In this document: positions 140 through 3,943 of the stretch, piece after piece
Numbering within the stretch: position 1 is the stretch's first letter
How the letters are laid out: each line of letters starts with the position of its first letter
Assembly: GCA_028875055.1 (NCBI GenBank)
Contig: JAPPGG010000011.1
Location: 1 to 56,522 of the forward strand
Direction: 5' to 3'
Length of the DNA stretch: 56,522 nt
From: Chloroflexota bacterium
GTDB lineage: Bacteria > Chloroflexota > Dehalococcoidia > Lucifugimonadales > UBA3495
The notes under the pieces: generated by a model
What the model was told of the DNA's origin: nothing
What the model saw: only the letters and a program-made list of their open reading frames with translations
Databases searched by the model: none
Position numbers and translations under genes: made by a program

Positions 140-1273
140 ATGTCAAGACGCCTGTTCAAGGAGTTGGAGCGGTCCTACGGCTTTGACGAGGTTGCCATAG
201 TTCCCGGCAGCGTGACCATCAATCCCGAGTTGACATCCACGAAAATGACCATCGGGGAATGCACCTTTGACGCGCCCATGATGGCGTCGGCCATGGATGG
301 CACGGTTTCGCCCAGTTTCGCCACCTTGATGGACGAAATGGGCGGGCTGGGCGTGCTCAACGGTGAGGGGCTCTACTCTCGCTACGACGACCCTTACGCC
401 ATCCTGGAGGAAATAACCTCCATGCCCCAGGAGGAGGTTACCCAATACCTCCAGCAGGTATATGCGGAACCGATCAAGGACAACCTGGTCGGCAAGCGAG
501 TGGAAGAAATAAAGAGCGCAGGTTCGACCTGCGCCATTGCTTTTACGCCCCAGAACACCAAGCGCATGTCCCCCGCGGCGGTAGAGGCCGGCGCGGACAT
601 CGTAGTCGTCCAGTCCACGGTCACCACGGCCCGGCACCAGTCGCGGAGCTACCGGGGCCTGATATTCTCGGAACTGATTGAGTCGCTTAACGTTCCGGTG
701 GTGGTGGGCAACTGCGTCAGCTACGACGTGGCCATGGAACTGATGGAAACGGGCGTGGACGGGATACTGGTGGGAGTGGGCCCCGGCGCGGCCTGCACCA
801 CCCGCGAAGTGACCGGCGTGGGAGTCCCCCAGGTGAGCGCCACCCTGGAGTGCGCCGCGGCAAGGCAGGACTATTTTCACCGCACCGGGCGGTACGTCAA
901 CGTCATTACCGACGGCGGCATCCGTACCGGCGGCGATATGTGCAAGGCCATCGCCAGCGGGGCCGACGGGGTGATGATAGGCACGCCCTTCGCCCAGGCC
1001 AAAGAGGCGCCCGGCCGGGGCTACAACTGGGGCATGGCCAACGCCCATGCCGAGCTGCCCCGGGGAACCCGCATCAAGGTGGGTACCAGGGCTTCCCTGA
1101 AAGAGATAATGTACGGCCCCACGTCGGTGACCAACGGCACCCAGAACCTGGTGGGAGCCTTGCAGGTGGCCATGGGAATGTGCGGCTCCTACACCATTCG
1201 CGATTTTCACCAGGTGGAAATGGTAATTGCCCCGGCCATCAAGACTGAGGGCAAGTTCTTCCAGCTGGGCTAG
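140..1273 (+). CDS. guaB3: GuaB3-type IMP dehydrogenase family protein
   Basis: The 377-residue protein has the IMPDH/GMP reductase TIM-barrel fold without the CBS insert of classical GuaB, which gives the usual GuaB3 length. The active-site loop [15 protein letters not shown] places the catalytic cysteine at about residue 219. The phosphate-binding segment DGGIRTGGD starts near residue 258. The N-terminus ([15 protein letters not shown]) is typical of GuaB3. Family knowledge: members are annotated as IMPDH-related oxidoreductases, and some GuaB3 proteins may act as GMP reductases, so the direction of the reaction in guanine nucleotide metabolism is not settled here. A GAGGTG Shine-Dalgarno lies 7 bases before ATG 140. 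It is followed 275 bases later by the UGSC selenoprotein gene on the same strand. Confidence 0.88.
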
Positions 1274-1548
1274 TTTCTCCGGCGTTCCGCTCCGTTTATG
1301 ACTGCCTGGTTGCGGAATTGAGGGGCGGCGGCTGAGACCGGGAGCAGAGACCGGGGCCGCGGCACTCTCCAGACTGCCGGGTGAGGGGCGGTACATAGTT
1401 TCGGTCCCTTCGGCAGGTGTGGGGCCGGGTTATTGAGCCGCCAAGAGTCGGCTCTTCGGCTGGTCCCCTGGGGAGGAGATACGGGGCCAACGCTCCAGGA
1501 GTTGCACCGGCCAGTCCCATGCCAGAAGAATCCGGGAGGTTACAGGTT

Positions 1549-2091
1549 ATGGTTTCAGCGTCCGGGACAATTCAGATACTGGACCCGCGACCGGAAGACG
1601 TTCCTGAGGAAAAGGGAGTCAGCGCCCAGCTTCCCAGCCTGGAAGGCAAGGTAATCGGGCTGCTGGAAAACCGGAAATACCATGCGGACTCGTTCCTGCT
1701 GGAATTGCAGCGGGTGCTGGAGGAGGAGTACCAGGCCAAGAAGGTGGTCTATGCCTCCAAGTTTACCTTCAGCATGCCCTGCGCCGACGAAACCCTGGAC
1801 AGCCTGGTGGAGGAATGCGATGTCGTTGTCCACGGCATCGCGGATTGAGGCTCCTGCACGGCGTGGGGTCTCCACGACACAGTAGTGACCGAGTCTCGCG
1901 GTATCCCGTCGGTCAGCGTTATAACCAGCGCATTTACGCGGGCGGCCCACGCCCGGGCCGCGGCCCTGGGGATGCCGGGAGTCCGCATTGTGGCGCTGCC
2001 CAGTCCCCTGGCTTCCCGGAGTGTTGAGGAAGTACGGGAGATGGCCCACGAATATGCCGATGAAATCGTGGGGTTGCTGACCACCCGATAG
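1549..2091 (+). CDS. UGSC-family selenoprotein (UGA at 1846-1848 read as Sec)
   Basis: A conventional frame stops at TGA 1846-1848, but the same frame continues without interruption to TAG 2089-2091. Across the TGA it reads H-G-I-A-D-U-G-S-C-T-A-W-G, the U-G-S-C motif that names this selenoprotein family. The product is 180 residues with Sec at position 100. The N-terminal half (TIQILDP..., LEGKVIGLLENRKYHAD...) and C-terminal half (VTESRGIPSVSVITSAF..., MPGVRIVALPSPL) both look like family members. Start ATG 1549 has GGGAGG at 1534-1539. A SECIS-like hairpin follows the UGA (1862-1876). The U-x-x-C arrangement suggests a redox-active selenenylsulfide; the substrate is unknown. Ordinary gene callers would split this into a truncated protein (1549-1848) and a fragment (1885-2091). 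The UGSC partner gene lies two genes downstream at 2876. Confidence 0.9.
1862..1876 (+). promoter_or_regulatory. SECIS-like hairpin for selenocysteine insertion
   Basis: CGTGG (1862-1866), loop GGTCT (1867-1871) and CCACG (1872-1876) form a perfect 5-bp stem. The loop begins 18 bases after the UGA. Bacterial SelB binds a small hairpin with a G-U-containing apical loop at about this distance. From memory, the E. coli fdhF SECIS loop is also GGUCU at the same spacing. Confidence 0.75.
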
Positions 2092-2180: not shown

Positions 2181-2873
2181 ATGCAGACAGTGATTGAATT
2201 TGACCCCAGCTACGCCATGCTCACGGTGGTGCTGGACCCGGGGGAGAGCATAAAGGCGGAGCCCGGGGCCATGGTAGCCCAGCAAGATGTAGAAATGAAG
2301 ACCGGGTCGGCAGGTGGCGGAATATTCGGGGGAATCCGGCGGATGCTGGGTGGAGAGTCCTTCTTCATCAACACTTTCACCGCCGACAGGAACGGAGGCC
2401 AGGTATGCCTGGCGCCGTCCACCCCGGGAGACATAGGGTCCTTTGCTCTGCCGACGGGCCGGAACCTGTTCATTCAGGCCAGCTCTTTCCTGGCCTGCAC
2501 CGAGAACGTTCAGACGGACTCCCAGTTCCAGGGCTTCCGGGGTTTCTTCAGCGGAGAGAGCCTCTTTTTCCTGCGGGCATTCTGCGAACGGGGGGATGGC
2601 ACGGTTTTCTACAACTCTTACGGGGCGATCAAGCGGCTGCCGGTGGAACCGGGCAAGGAGCTGGTGGTGGATACTGGCCACCTGGTGGCTTTCAGCGATG
2701 ACGTGGAGTATTCCATTGGCAAGGTGGGAGGCCTCCGTTCCCTCCTGGGAGGCGGCGAGGGCCTGGTGATGAAGTTTCGGGGCAACGGGCACGTGTGGAT
2801 ACAGACCCGCAACCTGGCATCACTGGTGGAGAAACTGATCCCCTTCCTGCCCACACCGGACCGGGGGCAATAG
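2181..2873 (+). CDS. TIGR00266 / AIM24-family protein
   Basis: This 230-residue protein matches the AIM24/TIGR00266 family: an early YAMLTVVLDPGESIKAEPGAMVA segment (given in parts: YAMLTVVLDPGES, then IKAEPGAMVA), a glycine-rich turn (GGGIFGGIRRMLGGESFF), a long beta-rich body, and a late GLVMKFRGNGHVWIQTRN strand. Family members are about 220-260 residues, form beta-prism-like folds, and have no well-established bacterial function. There is no signal peptide or membrane segment. ATG 2181 has GGAAGAGG just upstream. Its stop is 2 bases before the start of the UGSC-associated gene, so the two are probably co-translated, tying this protein to the selenoprotein locus. Confidence 0.85.
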   Translation: MQTVIEFDPSYAMLTVVLDPGESIKAEPGAMVAQQDVEMKTGSAGGGIFGGIRRMLGGESFFINTFTADRNGGQVCLAPSTPGDIGSFALPTGRNLFIQASSFLACTENVQTDSQFQGFRGFFSGESLFFLRAFCERGDGTVFYNSYGAIKRLPVEPGKELVVDTGHLVAFSDDVEYSIGKVGGLRSLLGGGEGLVMKFRGNGHVWIQTRNLASLVEKLIPFLPTPDRGQ

Positions 2874-2875
2874 CA

Positions 2876-3943
2876 ATGAATCCAATGTCCATCCGGTCGC
2901 GCCGTGTGGAGGTGGAAGCCTCCTACGATGCCATCCAGGACTACTACGAACGGCAGGGCTGGACCGACGGTTTGCCCGTGGTGCCAGCCACCGAGGACCT
3001 GGTCCGCAAGATGCTGCAGCCCTACGGCCAGGACCCTGCCACCAGCCTGGGCGTGGTGCAGCCCCGGAATGCGGAAGTTACGCTGGAGAAGGTTGCCATT
3101 AACGCAGTTATGGCCGGGTGCAGGCCTGAGTATTTTCCGGTGGTGGTGGCGGCGGTTAAGGCGGCTCTGCAGCCGGACTTCAACATAGCCGGCGTGCAGG
3201 CCACTACCGGCGGGGCGGCGCCGGTGGTCATTGTTAACGGGCCCCTGGCGCAGGAGCTGGAAATCAACGGGGATTCCGGGTGTTTTGGTCCCGGATACCG
3301 TTCCAATGCCTCCATAGGACGCGCCCTCCGGCTGTTTGTGCGCAACGTGGCGGGGCTGATTCCCGGAGAGATGGACAAGGCGACCCTGGCCCTGCCGGCG
3401 CGTTACACGTTCTGCTTTGCCGAGAATGAAGCCCGCAGTCCCTGGGAGCCGCTGCACGTGGAAATGGGGCTGGACCCTTCAGCCAGCATGGTGACCCTTA
3501 TGGGCGTGCGGGGGATGTACACCATAATGGAAAGCACGTCGCCCACCGGCATCCAGGTGTTGCGTACGCTGGTGGGTTCCCTGAGGACCATCGGCGTCTC
3601 CAACTATTACCAGACCGGCACCGGCGCGCAACTGGCCCTGGTGCTCTGCCCGGAGCATGCCCAGGAAATACACGCGTCCGGCCTTACCAAGCAGGATGTG
3701 CGGGAGTATGTGTTCCAGAACGCCCGAATGCCGTTGAAGCGGCTGGAGGGCATAGCCCACTACGGAAACCGCAACTGGCCCCGGTGGATTGATGAATCGG
3801 ACCCGGATGCCATGATTCCAATTGTGGGGTCGGCGGACGACGTGCTGGTGGTGGTTGCCGGCGGAGACGGGCGCCATTCGGCCTGGCTGGCCGGCTGGGG
3901 AGTTACCCGGAGGACGACCCAGGAGGTGGAACTCCCCGAGTAA
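2876..3943 (+). CDS. UGSC-associated conserved protein
   Basis: The product is 355 residues from ATG 2876, with a GGGGG motif about 9 bases upstream. An upstream in-frame start at 2795 lies inside the previous gene and is not used. The sequence has the conserved run found, from memory, in proteins encoded beside or fused to UGSC domains: GWTDGLPVVPATED near the N-terminus, EKVAINAVMAGCRPEYFP, a GGAAPVVIVNGP segment, SNASIGRALRL, and FCFAENEARSPWEPLHVE. Cysteines in MAGCRP, GDSGCFGP and TFCFAEN are candidates for pairing with the selenocysteine partner. No membrane segment or signal peptide is seen. The biochemical function is unknown. Its placement in one transcription unit with the selenoprotein suggests the two form a functional unit. 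Confidence 0.7.
   Translation: MNPMSIRSRRVEVEASYDAIQDYYERQGWTDGLPVVPATEDLVRKMLQPYGQDPATSLGVVQPRNAEVTLEKVAINAVMAGCRPEYFPVVVAAVKAALQPDFNIAGVQATTGGAAPVVIVNGPLAQELEINGDSGCFGPGYRSNASIGRALRLFVRNVAGLIPGEMDKATLALPARYTFCFAENEARSPWEPLHVEMGLDPSASMVTLMGVRGMYTIMESTSPTGIQVLRTLVGSLRTIGVSNYYQTGTGAQLALVLCPEHAQEIHASGLTKQDVREYVFQNARMPLKRLEGIAHYGNRNWPRWIDESDPDAMIPIVGSADDVLVVVAGGDGRHSAWLAGWGVTRRTTQEVELPE

Follow-up and report, generated by a model that had tools for sequence, protein, structure and literature searches.

Does the window, a stretch of 56,522 nucleotides of DNA from a Chloroflexota bacterium, contain a selenoprotein gene that is broken in two by an in-frame TGA only on paper, and what might the product of such a gene do in the cell? 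At the site in question, open reading frame calling with translation table 11 yields just two fragments (1417-1848 and 1885-2091), which is what the first-pass annotation had anticipated from a standard gene caller. When the TGA at 1846-1848 is read as selenocysteine (Sec), positions 1549-2091 are translated into 180 residues that include HGIAD-U-GSCTAWGLHD and thus the motif U100-G-S-C103. The same annotation had assigned the gene to the UGSC family and had called the family known but its reaction not, which agrees with the literature that was found (PMC2398784; PMC13188914). The features of the locus are compiled in Table 1.

Table 1. Features of the UGSC locus in the window, in order of position
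Feature	Position	Strand	Remarks
GuaB3-family IMP dehydrogenase-related gene	140..1273	+	TIGR01304 above cut-off; upstream of UGSC
Shine-Dalgarno-like GGGAGG	1534..1539	+	9 nt 5' of the ATG; read from the sequence
UGSC-family selenoprotein gene	1549..2091	+	180 aa and TAG stop; NF041046 and PF24696 above cut-off; codon changes indicate protein-level selection on both sides of the TGA
In-frame TGA, selenocysteine, residue 100	1846..1848	+	kept as TGA in the five orthologues compared; six further homologues have a Cys codon
TGC, Cys103 of UxxC, presumed resolving cysteine	1855..1857	+	unvarying in 25 aligned homologues; role inferred
Bacterial SECIS-type hairpin CGTGG[GGTCT]CCACG	1862..1876	+	loop 18 nt past the UGA; geometry kept in Sec homologues
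AIM24/TIGR00266 family gene	2181..2873	+	between UGSC and partner; ends 2 nt before partner
Partner gene	2876..3943	+	355 aa; without Pfam or NCBIfam family; co-occurrence, adjacency and fusion with UGSC

Reading of the in-frame TGA

The read-through product scores 145.2 bits against NF041046 (cut-off 125, residues 33-178) and 178.2 bits against PF24696 (cut-off 25, residues 9-178). Both matches span the TGA, and the proposed continuation of the frame into A-D-U-G-S-C-T-A-W-G is therefore borne out. With the UGSC family as described previously (NF041046/PF24696; PMC2398784), the protein shares the whole-length match above the curated cut-offs, the UGSC motif, whose columns are invariant in the alignment, the Sec residue and the SECIS-type hairpin. 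It is a new member of an already known selenoprotein family. The first-pass annotation had also described a typical family C-terminus. This holds overall, with one exception: Ser takes the place of a His that is almost invariant in the PHP motif of the family. The window encodes LPSP at 1999-2007 and the two closest orthologues (L119 and L120) carry the same Ser, whereas His is found in L122-L124. The exchange of PHP for PSP is specific to this lineage and lies close to the presumed active site.

The genome encodes four UGSC genes, all of which contain a single in-frame TGA, and the family is present in 45 of the 148 genomes of the class, where all but one of the UGSC matches listed contain one TGA. 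The closest named relatives come from Chloroflexota and Dehalococcoidia metagenome-assembled genomes. Alignments to homologues run through the UGA, where these have either Sec or Cys. The TGA is retained in the nearest orthologues L119 and L120, and Cys takes the place of Sec in six homologues (L135, L147, L171, L180, L192 and L194), three of which are from Sphingomonas, Natrialba and Alcaligenaceae. Downstream of the TGA, 28 synonymous and 19 non-synonymous codon changes separate the window from L119, with third positions varying most, and the corresponding numbers for L120 are 25 and 19. These codon changes indicate that selection 3' of the TGA acts on the protein. In three other homologues (L139, L160 and L167), the motif reads UGSST, meaning that Sec is retained and the resolving Cys of UxxC is replaced by Ser; these loci are otherwise normal and linked to the partner gene.

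The genome as a whole (3.75 Mb, 98% complete) also has the machinery for inserting Sec. The first-pass annotation had reasoned that the organism needs SelA, SelB, SelC and SelD, and indeed SelA (541.7 bits), SelB (345.2 bits), SelD (385.5 bits) and a tRNA-Sec with the anticodon UCA were all found. The selD gene on contig C49 (L011) has its own in-frame TGA (HCAGU), and its product belongs to the known, self-dependent type of selenophosphate synthetase.

Two other explanations of the TGA have to be weighed. It could be a genuine stop codon, a pseudogene mutation or an assembly error, and in line with this the standard caller gives two fragments and the genome is a draft consisting of 75 contigs with an estimated contamination of 3.67%. 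However, the TGA is kept in orthologues from other assemblies, which show the excess of synonymous changes 3' of it, and it occurs in nearly all homologues of the class among the matches listed, so that this explanation is refuted by conservation. A genome-wide reassignment of TGA to tryptophan or another residue, for which the open frame itself is the sole support, is equally untenable: of the 30 long frames in the window that do not overlap, 10 end in TGA, the genome encodes a tRNA-Trp with the anticodon CCA beside the tRNA-Sec, and homologues without Sec have Cys instead. TGA is thus an ordinary stop codon here, and its reading as Sec is particular to 1846-1848.

The hairpin downstream of the UGA is exactly as had been claimed, with a perfect stem of 5 bp (1862-1866 paired with 1872-1876) and the G-containing loop GGTCT (1867-1871) beginning 18 bases past the UGA. 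Such a geometry follows about 4% of the TGA triplets in the window. It was observed in 89 of 102 Sec-containing homologues and in one of the six Cys homologues, and at 5.4% of the other in-frame positions of the same genes. Because the protein motif SWSxHD could by itself favour a hairpin of this kind, the codons of the 102 Sec homologues were resampled synonymously in 300 rounds to obtain a null expectation. The recoded genes contained the hairpin in 20.7 ± 3.7 of 102 cases with a maximum of 32, as compared to the 89 observed. Moreover, the pair closing the loop is G-C in 66 and C-G in 33 sequences, and pair types vary on both sides of the stem. As judged from these nucleotide comparisons, the SECIS geometry goes beyond what protein constraint explains. 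For the window alone, a stem arises by chance in 13% of the synonymous versions of its own protein, and the weight therefore rests on the family-level test. The hairpin is the minimum-free-energy structure of a 60-nt fold (-20.3 kcal/mol; z -0.18, which is not unusual), and in a 40-nt fold another hairpin is slightly more stable. Folding energy (z -0.78 and -0.18) was uninformative and was set aside in favour of the position and synonymous-codon tests. Since the energy of the hairpin is unremarkable, its position and conservation constitute the evidence, not its stability. Taken together, these data indicate that 1549-2091 encodes a genuine UGSC-family selenoprotein, with Sec100 being inserted at the UGA via the hairpin at 1862-1876. 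In a fused paralogue of the same genome (L026; C1:34286-34816), UGGC is found instead of UGSC; the in-frame TGA is kept, and no hairpin is present under the strict rule that requires a G among the first two bases of the loop.

The partner gene and its surroundings

A second gene, located 0.8 kb downstream of the UGSC gene, encodes a protein for which no family match was obtained in Pfam and NCBIfam. A search of the genome with this partner protein returned four copies, one per UGSC gene and either beside or joined to it, on the contigs C6 (the window), C50, C62 and C1; in the copy on C1, UGSC and partner form one continuous frame (L026). The association extends throughout the class. Both genes are present in 44 of the 148 genomes, UGSC alone in one (a marginal match), the partner alone in none and neither gene in 103 (Fisher p 5e-37), and the copy numbers of the two are correlated (Spearman 0.95) across the 39 genomes whose copies were all listed. 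Adequate flanking sequence was available for 64 partner loci from named public genomes; in 60 of these, a UGSC gene lies on the same strand at a distance of at most 1.6 kb, in 50 cases upstream and in 10 downstream. The partner proteins of L119 and L120 are 73% and 70% identical to that of the window.

A fusion of UGSC with a conserved second domain called Unknown_1 had been described in 2008 (PMC2398784). Such fusions are seen in L026 and in L123 from a betaproteobacterial metagenome-assembled genome, where UGSC and partner are again one continuous frame and the UGSC part carries the TAWGLHD motif of the window, whereas the two are separate genes in the window itself. Unknown_1 is most likely the partner encoded at 2876-3943. 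The comparison of the loci indicates that UGSC and the product of 2876-3943 act as a two-component, sometimes fused, enzyme. Five residues of the partner are invariant in the sequences (Asp27, Asn72, Cys78, Cys176 and Glu179) and are candidates for its active site. The structural model of the partner (pLDDT 87.2) gave no match with Z ≥5 in a VIA structure comparison. A fold like that of class I fumarases or of ring-opening amidohydrolases was rejected for the partner because the Foldseek E-values of down to 8.5e-5 were accompanied by TM scores of about 0.23, an rmsd of about 18 and VIA Z values below 5. Likewise, the partner was rejected as a GrdE-type pyruvoyl subunit (hhalign probability 0.5%; the family of that subunit is absent from the genome).

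The AIM24/TIGR00266 gene that separates UGSC from its partner is an extra gene relative to the UGSC family at large; it is not constant, as L119 has a different gene at this place and UGSC and partner are adjacent in most loci. Upstream, open reading frames equal in length to the IMP dehydrogenase-related gene lie just 5' of UGSC in L119 and L120, in the same order. IMP dehydrogenase accounts for three matches among the scanned neighbour genes, and this gene is probably only a neighbour. Genes for TctC-type receptors and acyl-CoA enzymes also occur near the UGSC/partner pair. In betaproteobacterial loci, the TctC-type receptors are about twofold enriched near the pair relative to more distant flanks, and because the enrichment is just about twofold, a carboxylate substrate is a hint and not a result. 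The neighbouring genes thus weakly favour organic acids as substrates.

Kinship to GrdB/PrdB and predicted fold

Profile comparisons connect the UGSC family to GrdB and PrdB, which are homologous to each other and use a selenolate nucleophile that is resolved through a UxxC motif (PMC13188914). A UGSC profile aligned with the full-length GrdB profile with a probability of 73.5% (E 2.9e-5). When 104 UGSC sequences were compared with the C-terminal part of 28 GrdB/PrdB-like sequences by hhalign, the probability was 90.3% (E 1.5e-6) and the score 44.8, as against 18.2 for a reversed alignment, at most 20.0 for 60 column-shuffled decoys and at most 33 for unrelated single proteins. In the alignment, which extends over about 70-80 residues, Sec is paired with Sec, the G-[IVL]-P-[TSV]-V strand after it matches its counterpart, and PHPxG falls on a motif of like form, [PV]-[HF]-P-x-G. 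These profiles support homology between the Sec domain of UGSC proteins and the C-terminal Sec domain of GrdB/PrdB.

In the profile alignment, Sec occupies the same place in GrdB (U-G-T-C/S) and in the window (U-G-S-C). Other features distinguish GrdB/PrdB (PF07355, TIGR04483) from UGSC. GrdB has about 350 residues before Sec and cooperates with a pyruvoyl subunit (PF09338, GrdE/PrdA). A PF09338 search detected no such protein in this genome, hits in just 9 of the 148 class genomes and none in most of the genomes with UGSC. Unlike the partner of GrdB, that of UGSC is without detectable kinship to the pyruvoyl subunit. A search of 25 UGSC members with PF07355, a model that ends just before Sec, gave no match, and a sequence search for solved structures related to UGSC or GrdB/PrdB found none. 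A kinship to allantoin racemase was rejected (E 1.3 at best).

The AlphaFold model of the UGSC protein, calculated with Cys in place of Sec, has a pLDDT of 94.8 and consists of five alternating strand-helix units, with residue 100 at the start of the helix that follows the third strand. The model matches flavodoxin-, receiver- and lumazine-synthase-like folds; thioredoxin is not among the matches listed, although its absence there is no proof. Based on this confident model, the fold is probably flavodoxin-like rather than of the thioredoxin type put forward in 2008.

Proposed reaction and competing explanations

The UGSC selenoprotein and its partner most likely constitute a two-component selenoenzyme, for which we infer the substrate and the reaction as follows. 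The selenolate, sitting at the N-terminus of the helix that follows the central strand, would attack a carbon atom of a small substrate bound by the partner, probably a carboxylate-like one, and displace a leaving group from it. Formation of a selenenylsulfide with the UxxC Cys would then free the reduced product, after which a thiol system of the cell would recharge the pair. Because the pyruvoyl subunit, which activates amino acids in the case of GrdB, is missing, either the partner replaces it or activation of this kind is dispensable for the substrate. By analogy with GrdB and PrdB, the pair would most likely act on small organic molecules by a reductive cleavage or displacement that is driven by thiols. 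We assign a probability of roughly 0.55 to the whole reading, i.e. a two-component enzyme with a GrdB-related Sec domain and selenolate-attack chemistry. A precedent beyond amino-acid reduction is provided by FarB/FarE of fluoroacetate-degrading Synergistota, homologues of GrdB/GrdE in which the GrdB-like selenoprotein has been proposed to cleave a C-F bond, putatively by a selenolate attack on the carbon-heteroatom bond of a small carboxylate (PMC10838667). A literature search for UGSC together with SAR202 or dehalogenation gave nothing relevant.

The UxxC motif would suit plain thiol redox chemistry as well, and the protein could have a thioredoxin-like fold and reduce disulfides or peroxides as a thiol-disulfide oxidoreductase or peroxidase. 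A thioredoxin-like class was called likely when the family was described in 2008 (PMC2398784) and is listed for UGSC in a further source (PMC13188914). This alternative seems unlikely to us, since the model with its alternating parallel strands and helices matches other folds, the profile relative of UGSC is GrdB/PrdB and a strict pairing with a partner of 355 residues would be unusual for a general thiol reductase. The two components could also work together without reductive cleavage, as an isomerase, a racemase or a hydro-lyase in which the selenol serves as acid/base or nucleophile and the partner contains the main active site. Such a role would fit the faint match of UGSC to an allantoin racemase around its Cys and the faint likeness that Foldseek gave between the partner and both class I fumarases and ring-opening amidohydrolases, but none of these matches reaches significance (VIA Z <5 for the partner; phmmer E >1) and the near-universal UxxC suggests redox chemistry, which makes this role quite improbable.

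For a family to which no reaction has been assigned since its first listing, a GrdB-related active site provides chemistry that can be tested. The strict partner and the link to GrdB/PrdB turn an unknown redox protein into a concrete hypothesis, the reductive cleavage of small organic acids, and make the UGSC gene worth experimental work. As a tentative extension of the selenolate-attack reading, and one that we regard as rather doubtful, the UGSC/partner pairs could be widespread and often multiplied selenium-dependent reductases with a GrdB-related Sec domain and the partner instead of the pyruvoyl subunit, each paralogous pair having its own carbon-heteroatom bond to cleave in dissolved organic acids. 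The large numbers of paralogues in some genomes fit many different substrates; two genomes (G027 and G028) have at least 22 UGSC genes each, an unusually large selenoprotein expansion.

Because gene callers split UGSC genes at the UGA, a large family of enzymes goes unnoticed in Dehalococcoidia-type genomes and in Betaproteobacteria. Gene callers would also truncate the short GrdB/PrdB-like proteins of the class (L056-L085) at their Sec residue, as a TGA directly follows the PF07355 match (UPxC). One of these proteins is encoded in the present genome (L076; C22:31556-32041) and a further copy is located at C68:173858-174268.
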